From NCBI GenBank assembly GCA_031763025.1, contig JASSKH010000042.1, positions 1,364,001 through 1,428,000 on the forward strand: 64,000 nucleotides of DNA. The letters are read 5' to 3'. Position numbers and translations under genes: made by a program. Below are positions 12,101-50,700 of this stretch, in pieces. The stretch is from Macrocystis pyrifera. Lineage: Eukaryota > Sar > Phaeophyceae > Laminariales > Laminariaceae. Position 1 is the first letter of the stretch; every line of letters starts with the position of its first letter. The notes under the pieces were generated by a model, which did not search any database, was not told where the DNA came from, and was given only the letters and a program-made list of their open reading frames with translations.

Positions 12101-15100
12101 TGGGGTGCCACCGCTGCGTCCCACGATGACCTCCATGTTGGTGGCAAAACGTCTTTCCCGGGTACATTTATTAGCTCTCGCAGCGGGTGGGGGAAGGGAG
12201 ACCCCGGCGCGCTGTCAGATGCGGCGAGAGGGGTGGCAGCGGAGGAGGGTGTAGCGGAGGGGGACGTAACGCTCGTGGAACCCGGAAAGGTGAGAGGGTG
12301 CTGTCGAGAAAACAGTGCGACGCACCGGCTCATTCGTGGGCTTGAATTAAAACGGGGGAGCCGGATTTTTTTGTTTTGTTTGCAATTTAGGGGGTTTCGT
12401 GTTTCGAAGTTTCCATGACATTTATTTTGTCTGCTACCGCTCAATTCCTTGACTTTTTCGCTTCGCGTGGCACCCGCCGCCCCTTCCCCCCCCCCCCCCT
12501 GCCCCCCCCCGCCCCCGTTACCACCAAGGTGTTTCACCTTCCCCTTCTTCTGATGCAGCAAGCACTGGAGCTTGAGAAGGGTGTGGGCTTAGGCTCCGTG
12601 TGGCTGCGTCCAGCGGCGGTGGTTCCGTTTATGTCCCCTCCGCATCTCGAAGCAGGTGACTCGGTTTGCGGCCCAAATAGTGATTGTGTAGGGAGTGCGT
12701 TCTTCGCGTGCTAGGGTATCGTAGGTTTGTTTTTCCGTTGTGTTGGCTGCACACAAGCAAAGGGAGAGCCGGTGAATGATCAAAAGGCGATTCGTCGCAA
12801 AAATCCGCAGTTCCGACTTTTGGCGTGGTGAATCCCAAGAAAATCACCGAGTCGTGTCAGTGCTGTGCTGTGCTATGGCGATGTTAAGCTGCGACGAACG
12901 TAGTTGACCAACTCCAATGGGGCCGCCGTCGCAGCTGAGATACTACTGTCTTTGCCATTTTCATTGCCCTAGACTGGGAAGCGGCAGACTGCATTATCAT
13001 GTCACTGCTGTAACATTTCGTCATCGATTTAATTCGTACGTACATAGTTTGAGATTAATGAGGCCTCTCACCCAGGGCTACTACCCTCCCGCCTTGATTC
13101 GATGGCAACCAACGCGGCATCCCTCGCGTTTGCCCCAAGCATGTCCGTGGAGCCCCCCCCTCCCCCCTCCGCGCAAGGTGCCGAAGTCCACCTCACGAGC
13201 GGTTCCTAGTAGGATGCAACTCACTCTTCATGCGACTCGCCGAACACCTCACGGCGCTTCGCGCTTGGTAAAACCAATGTCCGTCTGGTCCGTGAAAACC
13301 CGACGTGTTCCGTCTCGGCGTTGTAGGAATGCGAGGGTCTGTAGTCTTACGACTACGGCCACGCATGATGTCGAGTACACCCCCCCCCCCGCCCCAGCCC
13401 CCGTTTTTGCTGTCCTTTTGTTCATTTCAACTGAATTTCGCTTACTTCTAACTTTGTTGTATTTTCGCCATCTTGTTTTTAGCCGCGCAAGAGGTGCTGT
13501 TCTCGTCCTCGCCCATTAAGCTCCATCGGTTGGTTAGCTGGACGGGGAGCACAGCGTCCCGAAGCGACTTCGCTGGAATGCAGGCAAGGCTCCCCGTGGC
13601 TGGTTGTTGTCCCTCACAGGCCTCTCCGCAAACCGTAGAACCGTGTACACATAGCGCTGCGCGTTTTGTTTTTTCAATGAGGCTGTCTTGTTTATTTTGG
13701 CTCCTACGGGGTTATCTCCCGAGCTCAGGGGTGACTACGGAACGGACATTGCCCAGTACATAAGTAGACACCACTCTTCCTGTGGTCCTCGACTTTCCCG
13801 CGCCGCTCCGGTCTGTTGATGTTTCCCGGTCGCGGTCGGCGGGTCACGTGCCGTTTCGCCCACGATCTCCTGCTGCTGGACCCTTTACGAGGAATGCATA
13901 GAACATGCCCGAACGGGCCTACCATCAAACTTGTGAAACCTGAGTACGAACTACTACATTGTGAATCAAACGCACACAAACACCTTATTGCAAATGGGAT
14001 AGACATAAGTAGAACAAAGGCGCCCCGATGTGATCACGCAGCTCGCAAAGTTGAAGTTGAGTATCAATCACTCGATCGGTCGAACTCACAGCTGGCGTAT
14101 TTTTGTAAATATTTCTTGGAACACAAAACACGGGCAGGTGGCATGCCCGATGGGAACTCCTGTTAAGGACGGCCAGCTCCTGGCGCCTTTTGTCTACTGC
14201 GTGGAGGTGAGGTTGTACCCGCATAGCACGCAAGCATGATAATACGCCCCTGTTCGGATGAATTTCCCGGCTCGTCTTTGTCGACAGTGGGGAGAGTGAA
14301 AAGACGCACAGAGCGATGCGTCTATAGAAAGGCCTCGACCATGATACCCTTCGAAAGCCTCCATATTTTGCTGTCTGTGTGTGCCCCCCCCCTCGTTTCG
14401 TTTCGGAGAGAATCGGCTCGGAAAGTCCCCGGGGTTTCTGTCATGCTGCGTGTCTATTCGGTATGTAAGTGATTGAAGATAGTATCAAGACATGGCAATT
14501 TTTCGAGCACTTCGCTCTACTCTGTAGCTGCGGTACCGCCCGCTCATACGCAGGCATCTGAGGTACTACTGCGGTAGTTGGACCAGCCCTTGCTGGCAGC
14601 TACATACGCAGGTACCAGTCGGATGCCACGTTTTTTCCGACCGAGAGCTGAAAGTAGCGTTCTCTCGCAACCCTTGCCCAAAGGGGGTACCGGGCGGCGT
14701 TTTGTCGGGTAGTCGGGTCGCTGTGGACCTCTTGGCGCTCTGACTGAAACGCTGGTTTGTGGGACGGAGCTTCGAGACGAGGTTGCTTCTATGAGGTCTT
14801 GAGGTGTTTCGCATTGCTGCCCAGATGCCACTGCCGTTTGGTTACACGGCAAGGTCTGTCTGTTTTCAGAGGCTCGTGCTCGACGGCAGTCCGTTAACAA
14901 TAGACCCGGCCCGATCTCGAGCACGCGGCCGCATGCCGTGTAATAACCTACTCGAGAATCGCGCGTGGCAATGTTATTGACACGCCTGGACGCGCTCTCG
15001 AGTGGACGTTTTGTGATGCCGACGTTGCCGGGGCGAAGCACGATGTATGGTGAGTCGCTTATGGGCCCTTTGCGGTGTGTTGTGTTGGAACAGTATGGAA

Positions 15101-26200: not shown

Positions 26201-29200
26201 GCAACGCCATCTGACTGTCCGCGTGGGCGTGCAGAATCATAATCGAAAGAGCCGGCGACGATCGTACCACTGTCTTCGCCCTCCCCGCAATGCGGCTTGT
26301 ATATCGTAGATCTAACCCACGTGCAGATAAGTGACAGCCGTGGATGCGTTTTTGGTAAAATGCAGAGCTTAATTATGACGTTATAATGTTTCACCTTTTG
26401 CACGCGTTCCCGCTCGTACCTGTCGATTTGCTTGAACGGGAGACCCTCGTATAAGCTTCAGGGCGTACGTTTTTCGGGGAAAACGATTATCTACGTGCTT
26501 AACGCCCCTGCTGCGCGGTATTTTACCCGGGTCAGGTTCTGAGCGTGCGACACCCAAGCATGGGTACGGTGGAACTAGGTTTTACGATCGTAGTGCCGCC
26601 GGGGCGTCTGGGCCAGTTCACGAAGGTGGTGCAGTTCTGGCCGAGGCTTCTCGTGGTGAACCGCCTAGAGAGAGCAATTGTTCTCGAGCAGAACTCGACC
26701 CTAAGGTAAACGTATAATTGGAGAGATGTCGTCACTGGAATGTGACGATTATTCTACTGTGTTCCCCTCTTGAGTGCTGACAGTTTCGACGTATGTGCAT
26801 TGCATCCTCCATCAAGTCTGTACTATTTCAGTTATTCCGTGTGGCATGGTCTACCTTTTTTTAGACGGGACGTCTTGTACTTATTTTCGATCGCGGTGTA
26901 CATACATGCTGTTGTTCACTGCCGTCGAGCTATCAATCCATTGTATGAGACAGTCTAGCTGTCGCTGAGAACTCGCGCAGCAGGGTACTTGCAACTCTCG
27001 TCAAGTTGTGTGCTGCGTTGGTTCCCTCTTGGTTTGTTTTGGTTGGTCGAACGAAAACATCGCCGGTCCTCGTTTCCTTCATTTTGGCAGAGCTACGGCG
27101 GGGCCGGGCTCTTCAGATACAAAGCGGAAAAGTTGTACCATTTTTCTTGTTTTTGCGCGGTCAAAGTTAGAAACTCGCCAGGTACAACTCTGTCCCAAAT
27201 GATAAGTACCGTTTTGATTAACTATCAATACACAACCGGTCATTATTTTTTGGGACAGAGTGTTACCTGATGGTACGTGAAGCGAACTCACCCACCCGAG
27301 GATAATGGCAGTCGGCGGCGACGGAGGAATGCCAGTAGCTTCGCTTTCGATATTTTCGAGTTTGCCGGGTTGATTCCCTTGGAATGCACTGCTCGCGCCT
27401 TCTTCGGCCACCGGCCCCTCCCGTCTTGTCCGTTCGCTTTCGGCCGCGAAGGTCTCGTATTGCTGGCTCTCTTGACGCCAATGTTTCTGTTTCAAGTCGC
27501 TAACCTCTTTTTCCCGCAATAATCAACGCAAAATCAGGCAACGCTCCGAGAAGGTGTCCGAAGTGCCGGCGGGCAGCGGGCAGCCGTTTCACCTCCCTCA
27601 GACTGGTGGCGAACGGGAACTTCGTGTTAAGGTGTGTTGCTGCTGCTTCTGTTTTTTTTTAAGTAGTATGTGTTCCTGAGGTGAATTGTGTGGAGTAGAC
27701 GGCGCCTGATGATCGTTCGCGATAACGCACGTTTCTCAGTGCGGTCGTTGGTTTCAGACTTGTGGGGATGAACCTTACAGGCGTTTTTGTTCATCAGTGG
27801 TTAGTGATCGACATGATAGGTGTTCACGTTGTTACCTGTTGCGCCATATATACCGTCCGTACGCCGCTACTTCTGTCCCCCATGCACTCATGCGTCTGTA
27901 CAGGTGGAAGGAGGTTGGAACCTTAGCGCGTCGTTCCCCGTGGACAGCGTGGGGGAGTACACGCTGCGTCTCACGCGCCAGGTGGATGTCGGCAAGCTAA
28001 GACACATATCCACGAGGAGGTCTTCCGAGTACGAAGTGGAAATACCCAGGATGGAGGTGAGATTTCAAACCAGGGATAGGGGACGGGGCATGTGAGGTTC
28101 GATGGTTTGTTAAACTTGTACTTCCATCGTCGCTGCTACGTACTGCTGTGTGCGAGTAGGGCCATCGTTTCTTCCTCTTTTGAAGGACGGGACATCTGCT
28201 GTAACTACAGCAGCAACTTGCTTGTGTGTCAATGTTCGTAGGGGTTGGATATCGTATCGATGTTTTCGATATATCAGAGTGTCCAAACTTTCGATGCGTA
28301 GCTGGTATGATACTGTTCCGACTCGGGACAATGCCAAGACATTGTGACGGTTACGGCGTCGGCCACAAGAAGCAGGCCGGCCTGATGAGATGAGGGTTGC
28401 TCACCACTTATTCGTGGAAGTGGCTGACACACACTGTACGAGACGAATAGCAACTAACCCTATTACGGGGGACCATAGTAAACAGGACCAAATATTGTTA
28501 GTAAAAAAACCTAAATATATAGGTTTTTATGTGGGCCATAGGTCCTGTTAACTATAGACCCCCGTAATAACACTAATCCCAACCCTAGGCCAATCAGAGC
28601 AACCCTAACCCTGATCCTAAGCCAATCAGACCAAATCTCGAATAAGTGGTGAGCTCTACCGGATGAGATAGGAGTTGCAACCGAGCTACGATGCAAGGAA
28701 ACATCCGACGCATGCCCAACATGATACAGCCGTACTTGTCAACGCGCTCCCACTGTTACGCAGTTGGTAAGACCACGCCATTGTTTCATTCGTTACTTAT
28801 TTTTCACTCTCGGTTTTACTTTCCAGCTCTCCAGACAAGCAGTAGTCAAAGGTGTCTTCTCTTCCCCCCCATTTATATACTTGGTGTATACTCGTTTATG
28901 GGTTGCGTTGGCGTCGGTTGACGACGACACTGTAAAACACACCACTCACTGCGTGAGCTAAAGTAGACAGCCAGGGTAACGTTTTTTTTTTGTTTTTGTT
29001 TCGGCGGTTACCACAGCTGGCGGTCGAGTTAGATCATTTTTGTGCGGGGAGAACACTTACTCCGCTCAAGGGGGATGATCGTATCACGTAGTGTATATAT
29101 GGTAAGGCACGCACGAGACAGTTACATAGGAAACCCATTGCTGCCTTTGGAAGTAGCCACACCATAAATTAAATCAATTTATTGACGCTGTCATCCATAT

Positions 29201-32200
29201 GCTCAAAAAGCCGCCTCAAAAGCGGTTCTTAGTAGGATGCAGCTTACCGTTCATGCGACTCGCCCAACACCTCACGGCGCTTCGCGCTTGATGCAAGCAA
29301 TGTCTGCCTGGTCGGTGAAAACCCGGCGTGCTCCGTCCCGGCATTGTAGGGATGCGAGGGTCTATGGTCATACGACTACGGCCATGCATGATAATGAGTA
29401 CCCCCCTTCCCCCCCCCGATAGTTGCCTTAACATTTTATCGCGCAAAGGATTCACTGCTCGTCGATTTTCATTTTGCTCTTTCATGCTCTCGCACTTTCC
29501 GCGATCCGACCACACACATGTTTTGGTACCTATAGCTCGTTCCCGACCGATTGTTCAATCTACCTTGTACTGAGAGGGTGGTACCAGGGACACCAGAGCG
29601 CGCTGACTTGGTTCCATCGCAGGCTGGCGTTGCGTCGCCTACGCGCCCTACATGCGCCACGACCTCTTCCCCGTTTGTCCCCGCCGGCACGATTCGCGCG
29701 ACAATTTTACTATTTTCGCTCGTTGCAGGATGTCGGCATCTGGCTAGAGACGGACTGGTACAGGAAGCAGGCGGTGATCAAGGAGATCAGGAACGTCAGC
29801 TACGCCTTCGAGAGCACCGACGTCCAAGTGAGAAAGTATTTTATGCGATGTGTTGCTGTTTCTCCCTTTATTTCGAGCACCCCCTACCCCTCTGTGCCGA
29901 GAGGTGCTTTGACGTGTACCTTGCCCAAGTTATCGTTGCTGATGCGAGGGCGGCTTTTGCGCTCCGACACTATCGTGTTTTTTGCGCTACTGCAACGGGG
30001 CATGCCCTGCACCTCTTTGACGCGGCGCAATTTCACGTTGAGATTGTTCCATGCCCTTCCTTCCTCTACCCCTGCCGGACTGCCCTCTTGTGTGGCTTCT
30101 CTGTTGTTGCTACATAGTATAGGTTTGTGCTTTCATAAACCTGCCCTCTTGTGTGGCTTCTCTGTTGCTTCTACATACTACTATAGACAAACTATGCATT
30201 CGTAAACAACAACCAAAAACGATGCTTCCGCGTACTTTCTTTACGGCCGTCGCTCGCTTAACCTGCATCCAAAACTTGCAAACCTGCAACTTCCAACCTG
30301 CATATATATTCAAGGGCGTCAACGAACAACCCGATGCGTGTCAACAGCTGTCAACATGATCCGATAAGTACGTATAAACTATTACGGGAGAACACACGGT
30401 ACCAGTCAGAACCAAATATGGCGTGTAAACATAGTGGGGTAGTTGATTTTTGGTTCCATCGTGGGTACTGATTCTTACTACATATGCCCACCCGTAATAG
30501 TACTCGCGTCCCCATTCTTCGTTTCTCGCTCGTTCGACCCCCCCCCCCCAAGGTCGGAGATGCCCTGATAGCGATCAATAACATCAGCGTGAAGGACATG
30601 TCGTTCGCCGAGATCATGCAGCGGTTGAAGGGCAGCCTCCGAGAAGCTCCGTACATGTTGCTGCGCTTCCGCACGATGGAGGAACGGTATCGCTTGCTTC
30701 GCATGAAGGTAGGGCCTAGTGTGGGTGGGTCCCGCAGCCAGGCAAAGCTCAGTCACATTGTGGGCGAGCTGAAATGGCCGATGCTCGAGCGTGGATACAG
30801 TAGTGCCGGTTGCCGCTATTATAGTGTCGGTCCCGTATGCACCAGGCAACAAAACCGGCACTATATATAGCGGCAACCGGCACTAACTACTCCGCACACT
30901 GCCGCACTCGCCAATCCCGTTTGTGCCAAGCGATTTCACAGGTACTATAGCGGGTAGCCGGCACTATTAGTACTCAACCGGCACTATGGAGGGACCACTC
31001 CTGTGTGTAGGGTCGTTTTGGCTGTGTCTGGATGGCACAGGGGTCAGCCGCCTGCATGTGCACAAGGGGTAGATACTGAACAGTTTTTGCATAGCGGCGT
31101 TGCGGGAGAATGAAATTTTGGAGCAGTGGCGAGGGCGGCCCAGTCAGCGTACGACATCCAGCTGCAGACGCGTTTTCTCGCCCCCGGACATGGCTGCCCC
31201 GTCCCGACCCGTCACCCCCCTAACTGTTTAGGCTTTGCGCAAGAAAACGGATCGCCGTACCTACCACCCGAACTCAACGGGCCCATTCACTGGGTACAAC
31301 AACGACGAGTCGATACACGGAACGTACAGCGCACGGGGCGACTCGCTACGCTTCACGAGGGGAAGCTTGGTAAGCGAAGACTTTGTGTATATTTCGAAGT
31401 AGGGTAAGATGCTTGTGGTCAAGGGGAGAACCTTGGAAAGGGAGGACTTTGTGTGTATGGTAAGATGCTTGTTGAGCGTTGTCCACTCTTGGCTTAAGAC
31501 CGTTCAAGCACATGAACATAGCGCGGCACATCCATACGGAGCACACTACGCGTTTTTTTTGTGTGTTTCATGGCGTGTTCCGGGGGTGTGCTTGCACCGC
31601 GCTTGGTGGGTGTGTTCTAATTGAACTCCTTCACGTTTAAAAGCATGAAATGTGCGCCATGCGTGTTTTATGCAGTGCAACCGCACATTCTCGCACGATT
31701 CGCGTTTTGCGTATGGTTCCATATGGTTTCAGGATTTAACTAGGGGTATAATGTACCTGTGCGCGTGCATGCCGGGGTGGTGACCTTGCACACCCCGGCC
31801 CCGCGTGACCCCCCCCCTCCCCCTCCCTTCCAAGACACATGTTACTTGTGTCACGGAATATTCATACATACATGTCTGGCTTTCAACCATTGCCGACGAC
31901 TATATCGTGTTTTTTTTTCTGGTATTATTCTACGCTACCGCCAGTAATTCAGTAACAGGGGGGCCTCCTGCCCCGAAGCGGCGGGGGGGGGGGGGGGGAG
32001 GGGGGACGCCCGGTACGAACCACCGCACTGAGTGCGCGCTAAGCGTGGCGACAACCCCGGTAAAGTCAGCGTCCGTGCAGAGATAACCTTTGTGGACGAC
32101 CCTATCGTGGCAGCGGTGGCCTAATTCTGCCTTCTCGTAAAATGTACTATTCCGGGGTTCCATAGTTATTAGGACCTATGGTATACATAAAAACCTGTAT

Positions 32201-35200
32201 ATTTGCCTATTTTCACTAACAATATTTGGTCCTATTTACTATGGTCCCCCGTCATACATATACGCCGTAAATGACCAGCCACAGTCTTGGAAGGATGATC
32301 TGGAGGCCGGCGGCGCCGACGGCGCGCGGCCTCTCGGGACGGTGGTGGAAGGGAGAGGTATGTCGACAGTGGGAAAAGTCGGCGGCAGGTTTTTTAGCGA
32401 TAACGCCGAGCGGAGCGACGATGACGAAGGCATGGATGACGACGACGCCGGCGACGGTGACAATAGTACCGGTGGTGGTGCTGGCGGCGGCGGAGCTAGC
32501 GGTACCGAAGGGGATGGACACGATGAGCTTGGTCAGGTATGTTTCGCTTTTCGCAGGGCTTGTCGTCGCGTGGCGTTTTCTACGCATATTTACGTAGGTG
32601 GGCGCTTGTTTTGGATCATTTGCGGGTGGACCGTGAAACGTCTTTGTTTTCTGCCGATTTTCAAGCGTAGACCCTGGCACTTCGCACTAGACTAACCCGT
32701 CGGGGCCTTGAGGGGAAATTGTGTCGGAAAAAAATGATGATGACAGCATTGGTCAGGCGAAGTAGCCCGGCCTGCTGCGGCTCAGGGGGCTGCACCCGAG
32801 CTACAACGCACGGACAAATTCCCGACACGCACGCACGAAGCATGATACTACGTAGACGTGCTGCTGTACGCTCTTCAGCTACCAAGGCTAGTAGTAATTG
32901 AAACCCGAGATGGACCCAAAAACCATGTGTCCCCTATATGTGTGTACAACATATTTGGTCATGATTACTGTGGTAATTTCTCCCGTAATAGGCGATTGGT
33001 AAGACCGCGCCTGGCGAAGCGTTGTCGCTATGTACCTGGGTCCCAATACCTGTAGCAGGGTTAAAAACGCCAGCGAGATGCTGGCGCCGACTCGCCCCCG
33101 TGACTTTTTTCGCCGCTGAACTGTGACGCGTCCCCCTTTTCGTGCGCTATTTTCCCTGTCTTGTACATGCAGGAACAAGAGATGATGCTGCGTGTGGAGC
33201 TTCGCCCTCTTGCTGCCTCCATCGTTGTCGTGATTCGGCAGCTGGATCCCGCCCAGGTACATGGCATGCTCGCTCTCTGGTGGTGATGCGTTTGCGACGA
33301 TAGGGGTATGTATCACTTTTCTTTTGACTCGTGAGGCAATATTTACGACAGACAGGGCTCCTCGATTGATTGACTATTACTACCCCACGTCGTCGGAATA
33401 TATACGGGGGGCTATTACGGCATCGATACCGTAGCCAAAACTCCCGGGTAAAGCGTGGGCATCAAGCTGGGGTACTGCTCGTTCACTGCCATCCGAACCA
33501 CCTCCAAAACCACCTCCACCCCCGGTGCGAAAAACACACTCAGTGCCCGTCGCTGCCGACACCACTCTCGAAATGCACGGCTAAAATCGCAAAAGGGGGT
33601 CCCGTCAGGCACGCCAAAATTATGCAACTTGGTCTAGCTGGCCCCCGTGTCGGTGCAGTCGAAGTGGTTGCTCAGTAACCTCAGGAGAAGCGTGAACGCC
33701 TCCGGTCCCGTCGATCCGGCTACGAGGGCGCGCGACACCTCTTGGAGCTGGTTGTGACCTCGGGGACGGGGGCTTTGCCGCTGCCGTCCGTGGAGGAGCT
33801 GGAAGAACTGGCATGAGAAGCGTCTCCCCGTGGGCGGTATCTCCGGGTGCGCCCATCGCTCGAGCTCTCCTTCCCCTGGCCTCGGTTTCTCCGACGTCCA
33901 GCCCCGTTTCGCCGAGATGTGGCCCCGGCTAGATCTGTACCCTGCTCACGGTGGGACCACCTGTATGGCCGGCCGAATCTCCTCCCCCGCTCGGGCGCCG
34001 GGCGTTCCGCCGCGATCCCCGCGGCGGACCCTGAAATGGCGGGCCAGTGCTGGAGAATGGCCGCCCTGTCGGGGGAAAGGAGGGGGGTCCAGGCTCCAGG
34101 CAGCCGGAGAGGCGACGCTTGTGCATTGTCAGGTTCGCGCGGCCGCCAGCCCCGCGTCCTCCGCAGCTGCCAGCCGCTCGTCCTCCGCGGCCGCCAGCCG
34201 CGCGTCCTCCGAATCCGTGCGCTCGTAGTTCACAGCGTTCTCCGGACACGTGGGGTCCGGGAGCTTGAGTGTCCTCTGTCCCGAGTATTTAGTGTGCAAA
34301 ACCCGCAGTGGACCTCCTAAAAACATGTGTCCCCCCTGTGTTTGCGTAGCTTGCTTTGGTTCTGAGTACTACTGTGTGTTCCTGGGGAGTACAGTTTTAT
34401 TTAGAGAGCTGTACCGTAGTGTTCAGAAACCTACGATGGACCCCCAAAAAAGCACATATCCCCCCTGTGTTTGCATGCCTTACTTTGGTTCCGATTACTA
34501 TCACGGGGGACCATAGTAAATAGGACCTACGGTACACACAAAAACCTATATATTTACCTATTTTTACCAGCAATGTTTGGTCCTATTTACTATGGCCCTC
34601 CGTAATACTGTTATGTTCCCCCCCCCCCCCCGTGATGGTGTTTTACATATAAGTTTCGAGATATGTATGCCCCGGGTATGGGGTTGTGCACTATCGGGTT
34701 GTTTGAGTGACTTACTAGTAGTAGCAATGACTTACTAATATCACAGAGCTTCTCAAGTAAGGAAGGAGCCTCAATTTTTTTAGGTGTGTCCCTGTCGTAG
34801 CAGCACGCGCGTGGTTTTTTTCTGTGTTGTTGCCCTGCCCGTGGTTTTGCGCGTGTTTTTTGCCTCGTCTGGCTGGTGACTTCGGACTTACAGGCCCCAC
34901 GTTTCATCCGGGTAGACACTGCGCGTAATGACGAACTCCTTCCGGAGACGTTTCTTGAGCGCCAGCCAATCGCGATATGTGTAGTTTGCGTTCGTTTAGC
35001 TGTTGCGAAGTGCGCCATAACATTTTGAGCGCGGCGTTAGCTCGGAGGAGTTGTGCCTTGAGCTTCAGCCAATCGCGATATGCACGAGTAGCGGTGCGAG
35101 GTGCGCTAGACTATCGAGTGCAGACGGCGGCCGCAGATGGCCGCGGTTGAAGAACAACACCGACATTGTTGTCCTCGGTCATGCCTTGTTTTGTGGCGCG

Positions 35201-35692: not shown

Positions 35693-38600
35693 CTGCGCCT
35701 CGGTATAGGTACCGTATGTCGTGGAGAATGTCGATCCCACCCACCGGGTTTACTTCCGACAAAAAGGTGCCGAGTGGTGCCCATGGCAATCTGCGGGACC
35801 TGGAGAGAAGCGAGGGTGAGTGCTTCCAAGCAGAGGGGCTAGATAGACACGCGTCACATATATTTTCGAAGGTGGAAATGTGGTGAGCCCTCCCCATTCT
35901 ATTTATGCAAGCAATGAACCAACTTAGTTTCAAGTAATTCGTCCCCGAAACATACCTGGTCCCCGGAGTTCTGAAGGTGTTGAGCTTTGTTTTTTTTCCC
36001 TCATCCGCCGGAAGGTAAACGAAAAAAATCGGGGGGCCCAGCTTCGACGAAATGGTTGAAATACTCTATGCCCTAATCACCTTCATAAGCCCCGATCGCC
36101 TTAGAAAAAATATCGAAATGGAGATGTGGTGAGGACTTATAGAGTAAAGTCTGTGTGTCTTCACTCTAAACCCCAGCCCTAATAACCCCGACGACCTGAA
36201 ATACAGATCGGAATGGAGGTGTAAAGTGGACTTGGAGTAAATTGTCCATTTTTTTTGTCGAAGCTGGGCCAAGTCCAAGTCGTAATCACTGATGTCCGAG
36301 AAAGCGTTTTACTTTGCACGGGGTGTCATTGTAAAATGGCTTCCTTGCGCCTCCCTCCCGCTGTTTTGTTGCGCGAGCCGAGCGGTTGTGTTTTGCAGTG
36401 GCGCACGCGTTTTGCATGCACGACGTGAATCACGTGTCAGGTCACCCGCATTCTCTCTCTGATCTGCCTGGAACACGCGTTTTGGTAATCATCACAGTAT
36501 CGCCGCCCTCGTGGTCCATCCACCTGAGTCTTGACAACCTAATTGAGAAACAATTGCCCTCGTCGCCCGCGAACCTCAGCCCCCCTTCACTCCCCCCGAC
36601 CACCCACCCCCCACCGGCCCCTAATAACCTCTGCGGCAATGGAAAAACAGTTACGTATGGGAAGAGCCTCTTTTGCCTCCGAGGCTGCTTGTCCGTGTTG
36701 GGCCGGACACCCTGCGCGGTGGTGGTGGCGACCTGCACACGGGGGGACGGCGGGAGCGCACCCTCCGTGGCCGCGGCACACCTCCAGGCTTGGGGCGTGG
36801 GGAGGGTGTCCTCGGAGGAGACCGGCACGATGTCGGGGCAGATCAAGCTGATCAGGTGAAAGGTCTACAGTAGCCACGATAGGGAAGCGTAGAAGAACCC
36901 TCTGGCCAACCATTGTATCGCTGGCTCCTCTCAGCTGAAGGACAACCCAACCATCGTTCGGACTCGTTGGGAAATGACACTTGTGGATGCACGCTATGAT
37001 CGAGATGCACCTCAGATCCCTCACTTTCAGAATCTTTATACTCCGCTCAAATGACTAGTGAAACTCGATGAACCATCGGAAAATGGTGTAAAAACTCTCG
37101 AGGATGTTCCAGCGATATCGGGGTACTTCCTGAGTTGAGGAGCCCCGTCAATCAGAGTTTTTTTTTTTTTTTTTTTTTTCGCTGTAAAAGTGCTGCCCCT
37201 GTTGTCGCACACATCTGTGTTTCCGCCGGAGACACGTCTGACGGGCGGAGCTCCTCTCAAGAACTGACCAATCATTATATAGTTGGAGTTGACATTCGTT
37301 TAGTGTTTTGGAGTATTTTCTCGTTCTTTACCTATGTAGGCCATGGCACATGATTTCCTCGCTTGGGTTAAGGGGTGTAAAACGGTTTCTTCAAAATCAG
37401 TTTTGAATGGGGTGCAGAGGTCCTATACCGTATTCGAGTGAAGAGCCTCAGAAAAACCAGGTGCCATGATACTACCGCCGAACACGTCACGGGTCCCTGC
37501 AAAGAGGGGGCGGGGGAGGTCAGAAATGGGCTCTATGGATGATGCGAAGTTTGCCAAGCAGCGTACCTCTTGCTGTCGTCGGTTTGCCGTCGACCAAGTG
37601 GTATACTGTGTCTCTTTGCTGTCATCGTTTGCCCTACAACCACGCTATATGTATGGCGTTCTCTTGCTGTCATCGTTTGCCCTATGTTTAATACGACCAC
37701 GCACTGCTGCGTGTGGTATCTTGCTGCCATATTTTTGTCTATATACAATGGCCCTGCTGCGTTGTGTTGTCTCGTGGGGAGCAAGATGTGCTGCTGCCGG
37801 CATGCTTCTATAGGTAAAAGGGAACGGTGATGGTGGTGTTGATATTGTGTGAGTCTGTGTTTTATGTTGATGTTCGTGTGAGAACTCATGCCCTTCTAGT
37901 CATGGAGAGAGCTTATGAGTTATTTTTATTTTCAGCTGACAATCCTGCCAAGATCGTGGAACTGCCTGCGTTGCCGTTTGTTGTTGAAGCTAAGGCGGAT
38001 TATTTTGCACAATGGCGGCATATATACTTCTAAGCAAATATATAACGGGCTAGCAGGTGTTAATTTTACCACACTACTCCACACACAGGCTAAACATGTG
38101 CGTGTGACTATTTTACTGCTGCAAACACTCATCACACACTAATTCCAAGTACTTCACCCCACAGAAGGTGGGTGCAGGCCTTAAGAGGTCAAGAGCTGCG
38201 GTCCCATTTCTGACGCGCTGCTCGCTAAAAGTTAACAGGATACAGTATTCCATCGTTCAAACGCAAACATGTACGTTGAAAGCTGCGGTCCTATTTCTCG
38301 CGCGCTATGTGCTCGCAAAAATTGACACAATATTTGTCGTCCCCGAATTCCGCACCTCAATAGTTGTCAACCAACCCCCAAGTAAGCCCCCCCCCCCCCC
38401 GGTAATTCATTCGAAGCTGTCATCCATTGCAAGTTCGCCTCACGAGCGGTTCTTAGTAGGATACAGCTCACCCTTTCCGACTCGCCCAACACCTCACGGC
38501 GCTTCGCGCTTGGTGCAAGCAATTATGTCCGCCTGGTCGGCGAAAGCCCTTCGTGCTCCGTCCCGGCATTGCAGGGGTGCGAGGGTGTATGGTCACACGA

Positions 38601-41600
38601 CTACGGCCGTGCTTGACATGAGTGCCCCCCCCCCCCTTCACTCAACAGTTAGTTGTAATTATTACCCCGTTCATTTTTGGCCTCCCCACGATTATATTAC
38701 AACGTACCCACAACAGGCTGGACGAGATCGGAACCGAGGAAAAGCTCCCCCTTCCGGAGTGGGAGTGGGACCACGGCGGCAATAGTGGTGTAGGCGGTAT
38801 CGGAGGCAGCGCAGGCGGGCACCGCGACTCCAATGGCGGCGGCAAAGCTGGCGGCGGAACGTCGGATGGTCACAGAGCCTCGGTTACAAGTGAGGGAGCC
38901 GTGGGGTTCTCGGCGAAGCACATCCACGCGCGCGTGAGCGCCGAAGGGCGCACGCGCGTGCTGCTAATTTCAAGCCACAAGGATATTCGCAGGACGATCT
39001 CGACTTTTGGGGTGAAGGAGGCGTCTTTGGTCAGGCAGCAATGGCAGAGTCGGCTCGTGCTCGAAAAGTACCGGAGGTAGGGCTTCGGTGACACCCCTTT
39101 TTTGCCTCATCATGTCCTAAGGTTCCCGGTGGACGGTCTAGTTTTGACCTGGTCAAGGCCTCTTTAGAGTTACTGCGCTGGTTTCAGTGTGGAGTTTCTT
39201 GGCGGCTCTCCGTCAAGGGGCAAGAGTGCCTTCCGTAGTCGATCGCATCATGCTTGCTCACCATCGAAAGCCACCCTCTGGCTAAATGTAAAACCATGCG
39301 TTTCTTAACTTTGTTTTTTCTTTTATGTTTTTTTAGGTTGAGAATTTCATCCCTTTTTTTCCGCTTGTTTTAGGTGGTGAGATCAAACGAGGGTACGGCT
39401 GTATATTCAATTCGCAGCAGTGGTATACTTCCTCTTTTTCTCACTCATTCGCACAAGAATGGCACTATGTGCTGGTATGCTGCACGTCCATCGCGCAGTT
39501 GAATCCTTTGTTTTGCTGTTTTCTCCCGAAAAGAGACTGCCTCGCTCGATTAGTTTTTGTAAAATTATTCCAACTTCGTCATCTGTTACTTTTTACCGAG
39601 TGAGTGGTTGATACTCAGCTTTGAAAATTGTGTCTTACGTCGGCTGCCCGTGTCGTATGTAAAAGCTATGGTATTGTTGTACGTAGTGTGACACGTAATT
39701 TGTGAATTCGACCGATTTAGTATCAAGTACTTGATAGGCCGTTTGCAAGCCGTGTGGTAGAGGCCGGTTTGTGTGAATGTCGCCGCGTAAAACCGACCAT
39801 TTTGCTCGTCGTTACCTTTCCTGTCTCCTTCCTGTTCGTCCAACCGACACCATTTTTCTGGGAAAAAATGCACCTTACTGTAGGTATCTAGAGGTCCTCG
39901 TGGGCCAGGAACAAGACAACATAAATATCAACTCCAAGCAAGAAGCGGTCATCGCCCTGGAACGGGATAGTCCCACCAACAACTCATTGAGGCTGATACC
40001 CGGGACCAGCTTGACTCGGGAGGACAGCATCGACGAGTTCGTCACTGCCCATGCTGGCGTGTTGAGTGCCTCCGCTAGCCCGGTGATACCTGGCGGGAGG
40101 CGAGGAGACGAGCCCGCGGGCGCCGGCTCAGCGGCAGATGGCAGCCGTTTAGGTAGTGGACAGGTGCCGATGATTCGCCCAGGAGTCAGCAGAGATGCGC
40201 TCACAGCGTCATCTCCGGCGGCTACGGCCGGTACGAACGACGACGAGAAGCAGAAGCTGACGATGGCGCATCTTCATGAGCTTGAGACAACGCTTGGCTT
40301 GGACGAGGCCAAGGTGCGCGACTTTATTATTTGTGTTTTGTAGTGTTGCCAAAAGTTCGGCATTCCGCATTTGAAAGCAACTACTGTACTGCTTGGGGTT
40401 GGAACACGATCCGAAATGAAGCCGTTACCTGACAAAAAGCGTGTCCCGCGGTTGTTGGTCAAAAGCGTAGTCGTGAAAACTGTGGAAAGTATTATTCAAC
40501 AGGACGAGCCAACTGGATTAGTAAAATTGTGACGAGTAGTCTGCTGGAGACCACACAAGCAATATTACTCGACGAATTGTTTAGTGTGTGTATAGCATCG
40601 ACGCGTTCTGCGATAGAGGTAGCACATTTCGGCTAAAGTGTTTTCTGAATGACGGGGCTTCTTAACCCAAAATCGTCGGAACGCCTAGCTTGTTTCCAAA
40701 AATGAAGAAATTTACACTTGGACCATGGGATTATTCGTCTGGATGCAGTTTGATTTTTGTTGGCATCAGTTTTTGGTTGAGGTGGGGAGCTCCTCAAGGT
40801 CAAGCGAGGAGCCTCAGAAAAATTTAGAGTGAACCTCTATCGTAGAACGCCTCCATCATGGAGTATTGGGGTGCGCACAGCACCAGAGCGCGCAAGGTCA
40901 CCTTCGTGGGAGGCGCAGGAAGGACGCGAGCATCGAACCCACGGCAGCACGCCCCACATATCGCATCCTTCTATTTCCAGCCATCCAGCCAGCCACGTGA
41001 AAAAACACCGACCGGCATGCCTGTGTCCTTTCGAGGATGTCCGTGTGCTTGTTGCCGCCGGGTGTTTCGTTTGGTTTTCGCTACCGTATGACGCAGAGCC
41101 AACAACCGTACGAGCAGCTACTTTTTGTTCTCCCACGCACTGCCGCTGTGCTTTCTCTTTCCACTCGTGTGCACAAGCTGTTCACGCGCTCGCGCTCGGG
41201 GTGCCGTTGGGGGCGCGCACGTGCTCGCCGTACGACTGCGGACCTCGTTGCAGTTTGCCCAAGAAGTCGCCGGGAGCTATGACAACAAGGACTAAGACCG
41301 CACGTTATCGTACCACTTTGTGACTCTCTCATCTTGATCTCGGAAACATGGTGCCAAAGAAAGCGGGTGTACACCTCGTATGGACTCCAATGTTGGTCCA
41401 CCAGGTTCCCAAGATGTGAAAATCTAACAAAAAGGGGCTTCTTGCCAATATCTAACCCTTGAGATAGTGGCGAGTACAATACGTCACTATCTTTTTGCCG
41501 CTTTTTTTGTTCTGCAAATACATATGATAATACATACCCTGGTGCAATACACCAGAGAACGATACGTAAAAATTGTACGTATGACGTATACCTGGTCCTA

Positions 41601-44600
41601 CGTACGAGAACGATACGCATATTACATGAAATATGTACGGGTACTGCATATTTTTACCATGCGCGCTGCTGTTGCATAGCCTATACACGTTTGATGGCGA
41701 AATATTATCAGGGAGATGATAGAGCCACAAAGTGGTACGATAACGTGCGGTCTAAGGCTGTGACGAGGGTCATGATTGTGATGTTTTCACAACAGCTCAT
41801 TTCCCTGAAACCTAACCGTGGTCACAAAATGTGCTAAACAAAAAACGTCCCGATGGAAGACAACAAGTACAAAATAATTCCTGCACCGAAATACCAGTAC
41901 ACAATGGAACGGTACGACGGGCTGTGGTATACCATCCCGTATCACTTGCAAACCAAAGCGTACCAGAAACATACCCATGGTACGCACACCCGAAAGAAAA
42001 CAAGAAAAAAGAAGAGAAGGAAGGAGTTTAAGACGGAAAAAAGAAGGGGAAAATAAACGATATCTCACGAGCCGTAGTCAAATCAAAAGAGGCCAGAAAC
42101 TGGAAGAGTGTCGCTAATTTGCTTTTGTTTTGGACCGCCACAAGATAGGCGCGTTGGACGGTTTACTCTCTCCATCGTTGCCCGTAACTCGCGATCGCTG
42201 CCTGTGTGGTTGTCAGTGCTTCATGCCCCGTAAGCAACGGAGACACGTGTTTTTTGAGTGCGTTGGTTTGACCGACGATGAGAGCCAGGACCCTGCCGAC
42301 GGGTACTTACGTGCATACCTACTACATTCTGAAAGATAAGATGTAATTGTGTTGTGTTTCAGCATAATGAAGCGCATCGCTGTCCCCGCCTCTTTATCGC
42401 TTAGAAAACCTTGGGCTGCTGTAAATGTCTCAGCTCGTTTGCCCTTCATACCGTGGCACTCCCCATTGTGTCCCGTCCCAGGTCAAGAAGGTATCGGATG
42501 CAGAACGCTTGCTGTCTAGCGAGATGGAGTACGGAATATCGGAGCCGAACGAAGTCTTTGTCGAGGTGATAAGCGATATGGGGGGGAGGGGGGGGGGAGG
42601 GGTGAGGTATGACACTCTTCGACGCGTTTGTTGAAGCCTTTGGTCTGAATCAAACGTTTCTGTCTGACGAGGGGTTGTTGCTATACGTCGGCGGTTACCA
42701 ACTGTTGTGCATTGTGACTATTGCTTAAAAATCAGAATCAAGTATGGTGTGTGGAAATAGGAGGATGCATGGTTTTTGGGTCCATCGTAGTTTCTGATTC
42801 TTACTACATATGCCCACCCGTAATAGCACTTGCGTCCCCATTATTCGTTTGTGGAATGTGACTACTACCCCCCCCCCCCCCCCCCTCCTACCTTGCTACT
42901 GGTAGGCCCATTGGGAGTGCCATTTGATGACCATCATAAATGAATACGCAAGTCTTGAAAATGGGTGACCGAGCCAATAAATATACGCCACACCATGTTC
43001 AGAACACGTAAAAGTGGATATCCTTAATGGGAGCAGTGGCAATTGTGGAGTGCGACTAGCTACAGTATGGACCCGCCAAGAAGAAACGCTTACGTATGTA
43101 TTGGTATTGGTTCTTGAGCAAGGCTGAAACCTTGCTTCCCGTATACGTGCAGGGACCATTAGGTCTTCTTATTTATACTCAAATAGTCCTTGCATTTCCG
43201 GAAAGAGTGGTATAATGCCTGGTTGGAGTTTGTGTGTCGCCCTGCGCTGAGCATGGTTTTCTGTTTTCGCCTTACGTCGTATGATAGCTTATCCCAAAGA
43301 TGGGATCCTCCCTCTTCAGATTTTGTTTTGTTTTGTTTTGTTTACTTATTTGCTCATGGACCCACAATGTACTTACACTTCGTATGAAATAAGCAGAGCG
43401 GCTGGTGTTGGATGTCGCGTCGAAAGTTCCGATGTATCGGAATATCTTGGGGCTTTCGATGTATCATACCCCCATCGAACACATTTTGCCCTACATCATC
43501 CCCCGTGTTTTTTATGCTGACACTGAAGGAAAGCTTAAGCTTCGATGTATCAAATATCGAGATCGTAAATATCGATTTGTTTTTTTTCGTCTATCGGTAC
43601 ATTTTGAAGTCGATTCCCATACATGCGATATCCAACACCACTATAATAGCGACAGTCACCCACGTGAAGTCGACTAACTTTCACTTTTTTGCCCCTCCTC
43701 TTTCAGGTCTTGGCCGCGGCGGGGCTTCGCCCCACAGGCCTGCAGGGCTTATCGGACCCGTACTGCGTGTGCTACCTCAAGGTTCCTGGGGACGCTGAGG
43801 ATACCCCTTTCCGGGGACAGCGAGGGGAGACATACTTTGTCGAAAAGACGCTGTACCCGAAGTGGTCAGGGCAGCGCTTTGTCTTCAAGGTATGGGTCCG
43901 TCTGTGCTTGCGATTCCACGAGTTGCGAGTGGAGCACTGACATCGCACGGAAGGAAGTAGAATTTACCCATTATGGGTTCGTCCGTGCTTGCGAGGCCAT
44001 GGGTTGCGAGTGGAGGATGGACGTCCCACAGAAATGGGTAGAATACATATATAACATGAATTCGTTCGTCTGTTCGCCCTAGTGCAGCTTTCATGTTGTG
44101 CAAGCTGTCTCAATAAAAATGAATAAATACGTGGTCAACCATGTGTGGGGTTTTGGCTCGCTCTACCTTACGCGCCACGGGATGTACAGTGACTCACGAC
44201 ACGTGCTACGGTAGGGGTATACAGCACCTGAACTTTCAGAGAATTTTCCGAGAATCCTCACTTGAGAAGCCGATTAACACCGACTTCGAGAATAATCGAA
44301 ACTTATCCCCCGTACGTAAGGAATCGCACTGGCTATATAGGCACCTGTCGAATAGGTAAACCTTGAAAATTACCCATGGGGTCCAAACGATGCCGTGGTT
44401 GGATAACTCCTTATAGCTGAGGAGCTCGGTCAGTGATACATATTAGGGAGAGAAATAGAGGCAAGTCCTACCGTGGTACGGCTCTTGCGGTGCTGGCACT
44501 ATTACCTGTAGCACATGCTGCATTGCTGTTTTCTTTCAGAAACACCCACGACCTCGATGTGCATGAATGGGGCGTTTTTTTTTGTTTATTCGACAATACA

Positions 44601-47600
44601 GGTTCCCGTGAAGGCGGCTCAGAGCAAGCGCGGCTATGGCGTGCGAGTGCTCATTCTCTCCCGGCACATAGTGCGGCCGAACGACTTCCTTGGTCAGGCG
44701 GATGTGCCCCTGTCCCTGCTTCAGGTAACGACAACATTTACAACCGGTTGCTTCTGGTCTGGTGTAGACAATTACATACGGGATTGTTTATTTGTCCTCG
44801 GTGTCCCCCACCGGAGATCTGGTGGTAGTGTTTCTATTGCGGGCAATAGGATGACTAACCATCAAACTTTTGGTTCGTTGGGTTTTACGTCGACGGCTGT
44901 CGTGATGTTTCTTTGGTAATACGTGTGCCCCTGTTCGCGCCTCAATCCCCGCGCTTTTCAGCAGCTTGCCGAGTTCCATCGGATATGTCTTACCCGACAG
45001 GCTTGAATAGCACTCAACTTCTGCAACCGTGTATCCAACTCTAGTTACAAGTAGTCTGTACCCCAAAACGCGGGTCCAGCTATAATGGGGTTTAGACGCG
45101 CGCCATAGAGCGTGTCTCGTATATATTTTCTCGTGTCACCATGCCAACAAACCCCTTTATTGTGACGAGGGAATTAAACTTCGCGTATAGACCCAGTGTC
45201 ACAATTTTATGATGCATCTTGCAGCATTGTGTTGAGGCGTTTTCCCTGGCACCATTGTCGTTATTCAACTTGAAGTCGGTCTCAGCTATTAATAGGATCG
45301 TAGGGTGCTCATTCAGTAGTTATGCGCCGATGCAAGGGCAGCAGGGACACGCACGAAGGGAGACTTGTGCCCCGTGCTAAGCACCAAGGTGTCGCGTTCA
45401 GCAGCCAGGTCAAAACCTGCATATAGGAATAGTCGGAAAGAAACCCTTAGTCTAGTGTCGAATGGCGTTTGCTTATCCGGCGAATGGGTAGCAATACAGC
45501 TGTGTCGAACGATTATTAGCGGAAGGTTTCAGCTGATTCTCCTCTGTGTTTCAACGTGAGCAGGATGAGCGGGAACGAGTCGGTTGGTTCCCGTTAAATC
45601 GACGCAGCTCTCGCTTGATGCACCTGGCCGCCGGGGACAAGATCACCGGGTCGATCAAGCTTCGAGTCCGATGGGTCCAATCCATCAAATCGTTCTTGCA
45701 CTGTCGGGTGCAGGGACTGGAGGTGGGCGTTCTCAATTTTTGGTAGAAACACAGTAGTGGCTTCCTTGACGTTTGGAATTTTCACTCCCAGCCTGTATGT
45801 GATGTTTTTATGGTCTTTGCTGTAGCATTTCGGGTTTTAACCTTTATCTGTCGTTTTTATCGACCGTTCTGAACACGTCTATTCTTACACGGTCCATGTC
45901 AAACGTGGCAATCTACTTTTGGTATGTAGGACCGTTGCCTCCACTAAGTTATACTCGCGGTTTCACATTGCCATCAGCCGTCGCTTCGCAACGTTCGCGG
46001 CCTGCTTCTCATGCGGGCAGAGAACCCATCTCTCGTAGACTACCAGGTGCATATCAACGCGATGCCTCAATCATGGTTTTCGTGTTTCAACCCCCTTCCC
46101 TGCCCGTGCGCATGCATATGCAGCCTTGCGCTGATTTCCACGCATATCGAGACACAAACGCAGCAACACGTTCCTGTTGATAGGTCTTGCCGCCAATGCT
46201 GGGCCCTCAGAATTCATGGGTTTTCATTTTAACCCCCACCGTTTTTCGGTGTTTCCGTTGATGACCAGTCTTTCCTCGGCGGCGTGGAAGCGAGGCTGGA
46301 ACGGGCGAGGTTGCTCATTGAGCGGCTTCAAAAGGAAGAGGCTAAGGAGATGAAAACCCAGCTCGCCATGACGGTCAGTACCACCTGCTGCGAGGCTGCA
46401 CCGCGTTCATGTGCGGTAGCGAGTTACCGTTCTTGGAATCCGGAGACGGCGAGGACACAAAGGAGAGGGTTCTAAGAGATGAAATAACCTTCCGATAATG
46501 TTCCCCATGTTTGTTTATTGAAGCGTGTTGGTCCTTATTTCTGTGTGCTTGGTAGAGTTTTTTACCTTCGCGGTAGCCATTGTTTGGTTAACCGCGTGGG
46601 TAGAACTGCAAAGTAGATGAACGCAGCACACGTGACGGTGCTGGCAAACTGGCAGAACACGCGAACAGAGAAGAATCCTATAACAAGTGGCAATGTTGGT
46701 TCTATCAAACCGTGTATGAGTCGTGTCAGCGCGCAGGGTACGAGTAGAATCGTGCTGCGCCCGCGGCGTATATACGACTCCTAGGATTGTAGCTCGGGCA
46801 CAAGTTTTATTATTCCCCAACCAAGCAGTGGTCGATGCTGTACGTGTGTTTTTTATCGTCACTGCTTCCCGTCTCAAGCCCCGAAGGGGGTCAAGTTTGA
46901 GTAGCCTGGCACAGCACCCCGACTACGCCATGCCATAACCATGTCACTTGTTTGAACCCCATACCACCGCCTCCGCCCCGCCCCCCTTGGCACATCGTGC
47001 TCCTGCTTCCTTTGCTTCCTTCACGCAGATGGGCGGACAAAAGGAGCACTCCAAAGTTGCCCGGCTCAAGAGGCACCTCGAGAAAATGGGCTTCAAGGGC
47101 ATCGGAGACAGCAGGGATGGTAACAACCGCCAAAAGACCTCCGCGAAGGTGGGGCCCATGACGCCAAGCCACCGAGGGGCCGATGGCAATGCTGACTACA
47201 GTCGCGCCAGGTCCCTGACGCTGAACGACTCAGTCGGGCGGTACGGCGACCTTGCCGCGAAGATCAGCCCCTTCAACGGCCGAGCAGACGGCGTGAACAC
47301 CAACAACATGTCAGTCGCGGCGGGCGGCAATGCCCGTGACGCCATGGGGTCCTCTGGTCCGCCCGCAACTCCTTCGAGCCCCGCGCGGAGACGAGCATCT
47401 ATGGCCATAAGCGGTCGGAGGCTGTCGGCATGGACCTTTGGAAGCGGCACGAATCTGGCGCAGACGTTACCACCGGGTGCTCTCGGCACGGAAGGTACTG
47501 GTGGCGCAGGAAACTTCTCGCCGCCAGTGTCTCCGATGTCTCGCCGAGGTGGTGGAGACTTTTCGAGCCGAAGGCGAAACCATCAACGACGTGGCGGAGG

Positions 47601-47794: not shown

Positions 47795-50700
47795 GTTCTG
47801 CGTCCTGTGATGTGTTCTGCGACGGTGGAGGGCTCGCTTGTTCCCCGTGCATGCGCCCCGATTGAGTTCCGGTGTTTCTTCGTGGCAGTGGTTTCATTTA
47901 TTACACGTGGCACACGGTGTGGAGTATTGACGTGGTCTGGGTTTACACAGCCCCGTTATAAAACAATATGCCTGGTATGATAGGTATATATGACTTCTTT
48001 GGCAGTCCTTCCTTTGGGAATACCGAGGAATTCGAACGAGTTTTTTTCTCTGACGCCATTATCTTCCCGTCCCTACCCCCACCACCTTGCGTTATCCAGG
48101 TGCGCGTTAATGCCCGGAGAGGGTCCCGTACGCTTACCCCGAGCAATGTTGACCAGATGGCGAATCTAGCCCGTGCGGGCACCACCCCCGCTCCTATCTC
48201 GCCAAACACCGGCAACACCACAAGCGGTGGAGGGGGGGGGGCAGCGGGAGCCACAACCGCCCCTGGAGCCAAATCCGACCGTGGCGCACGGGACGATGCA
48301 GACGAGGATAGAGCAGCCCGCCGCAGCCCGATCGCGCCATGCTTGACCACAACGCGGTCCGCTCCCGGCGGAAGTGGGACCACTGCGGAGACCGAAGTCA
48401 TGGTTGGAAAGAAGGAGGCTGTCAATGGAGTCGGTCGTGTGAAGTCGAAGATGGCGACGCGAGGGGCAAGGGAGGCTGGTGGTCCGTCGATGGGGGCTAA
48501 GGGGTTCGAACCTCTCGCTGGAGCTGTGGGGGCGGCAGAACTGGCGCGGCAGCGGGATCCACTGTGGGAGTACAAGCAGCAGGTGAGCTGGCGGGGGGGT
48601 GACTGACTAGAGGGGGGGGGGGGCTCTACTGACGTGTGTGCGACTTGGGATGACAAATGTTCTTTCATTGTGAGCAATATTTTGCGTTGGTTTTAGGCAG
48701 CGACGACTCACATGGGTGCCCTCTGCCTGTTTTTGTGTGTGTTTCACATGTGCCGGTCGAGCGTTTACGCAGTGCGTGGGGTGCCCGCCGGCAAGTCACC
48801 CCCAACCTCTTTTTTCGTTCCCTACTTTATTTTTCGTGCATTCCGTCGTTGTACGCACAGGCGTCCATGCTGCCGCTCTTGCGACGGCCAAGCCTGAAGG
48901 AGCTGCTGCGTCCCACGAGGGAAGCCATGGTGTGCAAGATGGACCTGAGCCACAAGCGGGTTATGAGGGATGGAGGTGTACTCCGAATACAACCTTTGCA
49001 GGTGTGGAAGCGCTGTTGTGCTGTGGACGGGTGAAAATACTTACCCCACAAGACGCTAAAATTGGGCCCCTCAAAACCGCACCCACGTCACTGTGGGCAA
49101 CCTACTTGAGAAATTTGTCTGGGATGTTTGGTTTCAACCTACCTGACATTCATTGAATGTATCTCCTTTATCTCCCAAAACGTTCGTGGTACTCGTGCCT
49201 CAACGCTGCCTGAAGTAAACGCCTATATACGAACGATTGAAGCGGCGCCCCCTTCCTCTCCCCAACCGCCATCAGGCGTTGCACCTTGCCAATATCCAGC
49301 GCCGCGTGTACGTGGTCGTGAAAACCCACTTACAGCGCGGAGATTTCTTGTGGAGAAGCGAGAAAGCCACCGTGGCGGCTGCTCCCACTTGGAACCGCAA
49401 CCAACACGTGTGCGAGTTCAAGGTAGAGGCGCTCGAGGCGTCAGGCATTCTCAGGTACGGAGGCCAGGAATTTGCGGGTCGAGGGGGGGCGGGTACTAAT
49501 GTCATGCATAGCCGTAGTCGTGTGACCATAGACCCTCGCCGGGGGATATAGGAGAAGGTATTGCTTTTGTTATACAGCACTGGGTGAATGAAACAGGAAA
49601 GCTTGCAGCAGCCGTTGCGGCAACGTACTATGACGGGGGGCCATAGTAAATAGGACCACATATTGTTAGTAAAAGTAGAGAAGTACATAGGTTTTTGTGT
49701 GTACCGTAGGTCCTATTTACAATGGTCCCGCGCAATAATAGGCAGGTACCATCTGCGCCAAAAGGTGGTACTGTTTGGTTCAATCGTTTGGCTTCACGAT
49801 ACCTCAGGGTACCTGTAGTATTTTTGAACCCAAAACAGGGGACGGAAGAAGGGCATTCCCGGAGTGGGAGAAAGCCTGCTGGGGTTACGGAGGAAGCAAC
49901 TCAGTGGTACTTGGTTCGTAGGGGATCTGTAGCAGCACGAGAAAAGTAACGGTTAGGGAAAACAGCATTAGTCTCAAACCTTTTGTATACGAGTTGGAGC
50001 GACGACGAAATGTTACCGCAGTATCAGCTGCGCCAGTACCCAGTCCTAAATATTGTACCACCCTTCTGCATCCACCCCGCCTCATTCCGTGACAACGCCT
50101 TAGCTTGAGCGTTTTCGCTGAGGTAGGCGCGACCGACATACGATCGGACGTAGAGCTGGGCCGTCTGGACATCCAACTGGGGGGGCTCATCGACTGCTGT
50201 TCGTATAGGGCGAGATCGGAGTATCAGGCAAGCATACTTTTGTCAACCGCGCTGCTCTCACGCCCGTTTGCCCACGAAGTCACGCCCAGATACACGGTCG
50301 AGAGCGCGTGGGTGTTCGTGTAGTTGCGGGCCTCTCGTTCGACCGCGAGGGTAAACTCATCAACACTACAGTACGCGAAAACTCTTGGGAAATTGGCAGT
50401 TCAGTTTTTATTGGCTCGACCTTTTTCTCGAAACGTAACAGTAACATTTGTTTTGGTGGCTGAATTTATAGTGCACGGCACATCATGGCTTACGTGATAG
50501 TTTGAGTCGCGCTCAAAATGTGAGTTTTTTTTCAAGCGTGCAGCAGTACATCATCAATCACCATGCTTGTGCTCCGCGACGTACACCTATCTCCCTACGC
50601 TGCACTTGACGTGGTCAATGCTGCAGTCGTTAACCGTGTTAACACTGCGGTCCTGATCTGGGGACAAACTACTTGGAATTTGAGTGATTTGTCCCCAAAC

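Follow-up and report, generated by a model that had tools for sequence, protein, structure and literature searches.

What directs a VPS13 protein to a given membrane contact site is an open question, and adaptor choice in this family is best known for short motifs that are read by a single groove. The case studied here is a 64,000-nucleotide stretch of the Macrocystis pyrifera genome (positions 1,364,001 to 1,428,000 of contig JASSKH010000042.1; G000:C132:1364001-1428000 in our numbering), which we call the window and to whose first letter all positions below refer. A VPS13-type gene of this window appears to carry a PDZ domain within its VAB, the region where adaptors bind. Is this PDZ domain real, where in the VAB does it lie, and what could it do there? 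At the level of sequence the domain is real, with a modest match, and by alignment it is inserted in VAB module 5, in the loop preceding the last two strands of that module.

Exons were predicted on the plus strand across the window by a simple custom exon finder, and the gene model is thus computed rather than transcript-based. The joined exons matched the Pfam family VPS13_VAB (PF25036) with E = 4.4e-23. In addition, predicted exons on the same strand, 34-37.5 kb upstream of the window, matched 6cbc, a solved Vps13 N-terminus (E = 6.6e-9), so that the N-terminal chorein region is present. The Pfam match of these upstream exons to VPS13_N (E = 2.3e-6, 26.1 bits) was below the 80-bit cut-off of this 1317-position model. 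The shared strand and the exon order suggest that the upstream exons and the window belong to one gene, which would then span about 100 kb. For the C-terminal region after the VAB, seven exon pieces picked by eye (216 residues) were used as a query against PDB, and they matched human VPS13A (9yg5, E = 1.7e-9) and human VPS13C (9yqp, E = 1.4e-7); this query matched no Pfam family. Furthermore, the VAB is built of beta modules that repeat and carry a conserved Asn, and modules 5 and 6 are those that were resolved one by one. The first-pass annotation had named the gene a VPS13, and the VAB, N-terminal and C-terminal matches all agree with this. By these similarities, the host gene encodes a VPS13-type bridge lipid-transfer protein.

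The same annotation had reported a complete PDZ pattern, and the six peptides that it quoted were all located in the sequence. Pfam PDZ (PF00595, curated cut-off 23.2 bits) matched the peptide of exons 26 and 27 alone with 23.5 bits (E = 7.5e-5). When a strand from exon 25 was added, the score was 24.1 bits (E = 4.8e-5), which bears the reported pattern out. Ten control sequences were made and eight were submitted; none of these eight (one reversed and seven shuffled) matched PDZ at E ≤ 1. In a phmmer search against PDB, 56 sequences were found at E ≤ 1, and 55 of them were PDZ proteins, the exception being 5jy1. PDZ status was judged here by name, and a few others, nNOS, APBA2 and KIAA1526, were counted as known PDZ proteins. 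The best NCBIfam match was the tail-specific protease Tsp (E = 1.2e-6) over residues 11-74, presumably the PDZ region of that family. In addition, the Phi-G-Phi carboxylate loop is kept as DVGI and is aligned with ELGI of GRIP1 (1p1d).

Exon 26 (29729-29827), bordered by CAG and GTGAGA, encodes the carboxylate-loop-like DVGI and the next PDZ strands. Exon 27 (30553-30708), bordered by AAG and GTAGGG, encodes VGDALIAINN, the helix SFAEIMQRLKG, the last strand YMLLRF and a short charged tail. The length of each is a multiple of three, and the borders are GT..AG. Among random stretches without stops taken from the window, 1.5% reached the coding score of exon 26 and 3.6% that of exon 27, values to be read with the fact that the codon model had been seeded with these exons. 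Joined together, the predicted exons 25-32 keep a stop-free frame through to the module 6 motif PYVVEN..YVWEEP. Could the PDZ be an artefact, either unrelated exons joined by the model or a chance match? The computed gene model, the seeded codon model, a Pfam score barely above the cut-off and the weak acceptor of exon 27 (score 3.2), where AAG follows a run of C, would all fit this explanation. However, the PDZ parts are ordered, in frame and on one strand, and E = 4.8e-5 stands against zero matches in eight controls. We thus regard an artefact as very improbable.

The PDZ had been assigned to exons 26 and 27 only. Both exons do carry it; however, the first strand, EYEVEIPRME (28027-28056), sits at the end of exon 25. 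The GRIP1 alignment begins at YEVEI of exon 25, and with this strand included Pfam gives 24.1 instead of 23.5 bits. These results rule out a two-exon PDZ; the domain is spread over three. Exon 25 (27904-28056) also encodes module 5 strands to GEYTLRLTRQ, after which the insert begins according to the gene model and the alignment with 7u8t, the VAB structure of Chaetomium thermophilum Vps13 with a Pro-X-Pro peptide of Mcp1.

The phase 0 borders of these exons, which had been read as a sign of exon shuffling, are indeed present. However, phase 0-0 is the commonest phase of this gene, found in 36 of the 61 predicted exons that have a score of more than 5. In addition, the domain does not begin and end at exon borders. 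Phase 0 is therefore the background of the gene, and exon shuffling is not indicated by it. The same borders bear on another explanation, that the PDZ is an optional cassette. The lengths of exons 26-29 are all divisible by three, and exons 26 and 27 (255 nucleotides), as well as 28 and 29, could be skipped in frame, which would be compatible with the other readings of the domain. However, with 36 of 61 exons in phase 0-0 such an arrangement is expected by chance, and skipping exons 26 and 27 would leave the first PDZ strand behind in exon 25. A cassette thus seems quite unlikely to us.

Where does the insert lie in the VAB? The VAB structure comprises six nine-stranded modules, of which modules 1-5 cover residues 1944-2516, and N2521 closes strand 1 of module 6, as described in the available text of PMC8978259. 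The window VAB exons matched the 7u8t chain with E = 0.00072. The alignment was extended by a mixed query of chain letters followed by window letters, of which only the extension counts, as the E-value reflects the chain letters. In this extension, RLIRVEI..ATIFLNL of 7u8t (chain 567-584) was aligned with MMLRVEL..ASIVVVI of exon 30 (33173-33256), whose MMLRVELRPLAASIVVVIRQ falls at chain 567-585, ahead of the Asn at chain 597. According to the construct description, chain 597 is N2521 and chain 565 is R2489 (Arg). Since the exon 30 strands are aligned before N2521, they are the final two strands of module 5, and the PDZ therefore lies inside this module.

The continuity of the Pfam VAB match agrees with this placement. 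When the insert was removed, the VAB profile matched one stretch, 359-566 of 570, with 74.8 bits; when it was kept, the match fell into two stretches with 61.3 bits. The PDZ had been placed between modules 5 and 6 in the first-pass annotation. Its position within the VAB stands; the placement between the two modules is ruled out by the 7u8t alignment and does not fit the VAB continuity without the insert.

The remaining parts of the two modules can be followed in the gene model. Following the end of module 4, module 5 starts in the exon at 26536-26705 (PRLLVVNRLERAIVLEQ, with the conserved Asn), and its middle is encoded by exon 24 (27538-27631); both were placed using the gene model, PF25036 and the 7u8t alignment. 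After the PDZ, exon 28 (31232-31369) encodes a linker, and it is followed in the model by exon 29 (32279-32536; DDDEGMDDDDAGDGD), whose acceptor is less certain. The exon 29 stretch, which is acidic and Gly-rich and separates the PDZ from the closing strands of module 5, is likely a flexible linker. Exon 31 (35709-35815), which was located by motif and has a low coding score, starts module 6 with its conserved Asn retained (PYVVEN). The start of exon 32 (36651-36702) encodes YVWEEPLLPPRLLVRVG of module 6 (gene model and Pfam), and the 3′ end of this exon is not fixed.

In the gene model, the insert comprises 245 residues. By the alignment, the loop that bears it corresponds to the loop holding R2489, a groove residue of Chaetomium Vps13. 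In that protein, joint mutation of R2489E, L2554A, I2559A and M2560A in the groove abolished the binding of Pro-X-Pro adaptors. Because the PDZ sits in the groove loop, its place suggests that it may help or gate adaptor docking. This position, which the first-pass annotation did not contain, is the most interesting part of the result. A PDZ helix that begins with Phe, as the one in exon 27 does, and a retained Phi-G-Phi loop (DVGI) would point to class II, the PDZ class of hydrophobic C-terminal ligands.

Thus, we propose that the VAB of this VPS13 acquired a PDZ domain in its module 5 loop and that the PDZ binds a hydrophobic C-terminal tail and so directs this copy. The VAB would still fold around the insert, and two linkers would tether the PDZ to module 5, a short one of about 15 residues leading in and a flexible one of about 150 leading back. 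The PDZ would bind the tail (class II type) of a membrane or adaptor protein, acting beside the Pro-X-Pro site or replacing it, and this one VPS13 copy would be sent to a particular contact site in this way. In a stricter form, which we consider unlikely, the PDZ at the rim of the groove would couple adaptor docking to tail binding. This would be a two-key lock, in which lipid would be transferred only where ligands of the groove and of the PDZ are present together, or in which the PDZ has replaced the Pro-X-Pro groove as the adaptor reader.

The same position and the return linker of about 150 residues would also suit an internal regulator. In that case, the PDZ would bind the tail or a loop of the same VPS13, or cover the Pro-X-Pro groove, and the adaptor site would be closed until the PDZ is displaced. 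For VPS13C, the available text of PMC13430412 describes a presumed switch between an active and an inactive state and discusses access to the VAB as a controlled step. We hold this explanation to be possible but improbable.

Several results weigh against our proposal, in which the PDZ reads C-terminal tails, or against parts of it. With longer flanks the PDZ scores were 21.8, 20.4 and 20.3 bits, all below the 23.2-bit cut-off, and it is because of these constructs that we call the match modest. The Pfam local match covers the PDZ profile from position 24 onward and leaves out the carboxylate loop; this loop and the second strand, which read the ligand, are the least typical parts. Among the 56 PDB matches only one passed E ≤ 0.001. 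The E-value of this match, GRIP1 1p1d (8.8e-7), was summed over two PDZ domains, and the better single domain had an independent E-value of 0.084. Structure prediction, made for exon 27 alone, gave a helical model without strands (predicted local distance difference test score, pLDDT, 61.8) and was uninformative. In the collections of viral contigs and genome contigs, neither of which was expected to hold algae, no relative was found outside the alga's own genome. Furthermore, of the four groove residues the alignment reached the place of R2489; this Arg falls in a gap and has no aligned residue in the window, and the Pro-X-Pro groove may therefore be altered in this gene. Taking these points together, we would give the proposal even chances.

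Do other VPS13-type genes of this alga share the PDZ? The genome (537 Mb, 223 contigs) was searched using the VAB profile, and four other VPS13-type places were found (L003-L010, on G000:C210, C204 and C131), one of which, at 8.37 Mb of C210, was barely at the cut-off. This search took exons singly and missed the window gene itself, and there may therefore be more VPS13-type genes in the genome. Judged by eye from gene predictions, C204 (ETHLWVVDSRGRRHLAAAF) and C131 (ETYVWLKGGRHQRDVLVRV) have short links between the corresponding strands, and the place at 2.27 Mb of C210 has a Gly-rich stretch around a 200-base intron. Pfam found no PDZ in the exons of these three genes. At 8.37 Mb of C210, 2.7 kb separate the two strands that presumably flank the site, and Pfam found no PDZ in the three sense frames of this stretch, where a PDZ split between exons could escape. 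Thus, a PDZ was not seen in the predicted exons of three of the four sister genes. When the sister loci were compared with the window exons using phmmer, no match was found, though these loci hold VAB exons, so this test is insensitive.

A genome-wide PDZ search gave seven matches, none of them at the VPS13-type VAB places; the split PDZ of the window was missed as well, and the result is hence no proof. In addition, the peptide of exons 26 and 27 found only the two exons of the window in its own genome at E ≤ 0.001, which argues that the genome holds no close donor copy. Elsewhere in the window, an exon with PDZ-like letters (10037-10201), taken together with parts of its neighbours, matched no Pfam family.

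In some of the sister genes, the VAB exons include very long stretches of low complexity. The PDZ could likewise bind no ligand and be a spacer or remnant, accreted and tolerated in the loop as those stretches are, and its ligand-reading half is its least PDZ-like part. However, the open frames, the GT..AG borders and the hallmark positions (DVGI, VGDALIAINN and the helix) have all been kept. We consider a spacer or remnant unlikely.

The host gene has a further domain on the 3′ side of the VAB. At 43707-45596 (plus strand), three exons encode a C2 domain, which Pfam matched with E = 4.4e-12. It is the second interaction domain added to this protein, and its place differs from that in plant VPS13M1/2. 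At 49276-49454 (plus strand), RRVYVVVKTHLQ..PTWNRNQHVCEFKVEAL resembles by eye part of a second C2, and Pfam named no family for it.

Two kinds of dispersed repeats were also seen in the window. A palindromic repeat of about 110 bases lies at 28461-28569, with 29-nucleotide arms that are 90% complementary, and it resembles a miniature inverted-repeat transposable element. Similar blocks are at 5164, 11034, 18832, 20485, 21174, 32145, 34496, 49624, 54412 and 54569; in all, eleven blocks of high self-similarity in the window look like copies of this repeat, as judged by size and match number. The second repeat, grouped by block size and match number, is at most about 200 bases long and is found at 29208-29417, 1899-2041, 6122-6206, 13184-13395, 38431-38636 and 56520-56627.

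Has a PDZ been described in a VPS13 before? The first-pass annotation knew of none from animals, yeast or plants. This is in line with a survey of the accessory domains found in VPS13 proteins, whose main text does not contain the term PDZ (PMC7613979). The term is also absent from the available text of PMC12066543, PMC13298984, PMC13036008 and PMC13430412. Among the open-access papers listed that combine PDZ with bridge-like lipid transfer, with chorein or with VPS13, no PDZ inside a VPS13 was found in titles and the starts of abstracts, and papers listed under broader terms gave the same outcome. In the available texts, the PDZ of PMC13328759 is that of PDZD8, another lipid-transfer protein, that of PMC13032043 concerns the partners of another protein, and that of PMC12419801 is bacterial. 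It is quite possible that an unremarked database entry for a PDZ-bearing VPS13 exists.

If our proposal is true, a PDZ in the groove loop would add a well-understood ligand code, that of C-terminal tails, to VPS13 targeting, and possible partners could be listed from the proteome. The PDZ would suggest an additional way for a VPS13 to choose the membrane that it connects. It also extends a theme, in which VPS13 copies diverge by gaining interaction domains in VAB loops.

Compared with known systems, the gene is both familiar and different. In 7u8t, the strands of modules 5 and 6 and the module 6 Asn are like those of the window gene, whereas the R2489 loop has about 4 residues there. The GRIP1 PDZ tandem (1p1d) is the top PDB match and spans the whole PDZ length; however, GRIP1 is an animal synaptic scaffold rather than a lipid bridge, and its single-domain match is weak. 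PDZD8 is a PDZ-bearing lipid-transfer protein at contact sites, but it is an SMP-domain lipid shuttle or tunnel and not a VPS13 bridge, and the VAB is unmentioned in the available text (PMC8667587). Plasmodium VPS13L1 is likewise a protist protein with a domain added near the VAB; this domain is a UBA beside the VAB (PMC13036008, available text). The main text of the survey (PMC7613979) presumes that accessory domains of VPS13 proteins bind partners, and it lists UBA, WWE and further domains elsewhere in these proteins. In the same source, plant VPS13M1 and VPS13M2 show domain accretion inside the VAB, with a C2 in the first loop of repeat 1, whereas the C2 of the window protein follows the VAB. 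Animal VPS13D also has an interaction domain in a loop of one VAB repeat; there it is a ricin-type lectin in repeat 6, and here it is a PDZ in module 5 (PMC7613979). The window gene is thus a new domain arrangement within the known habit of VPS13 proteins to accrete interaction domains.
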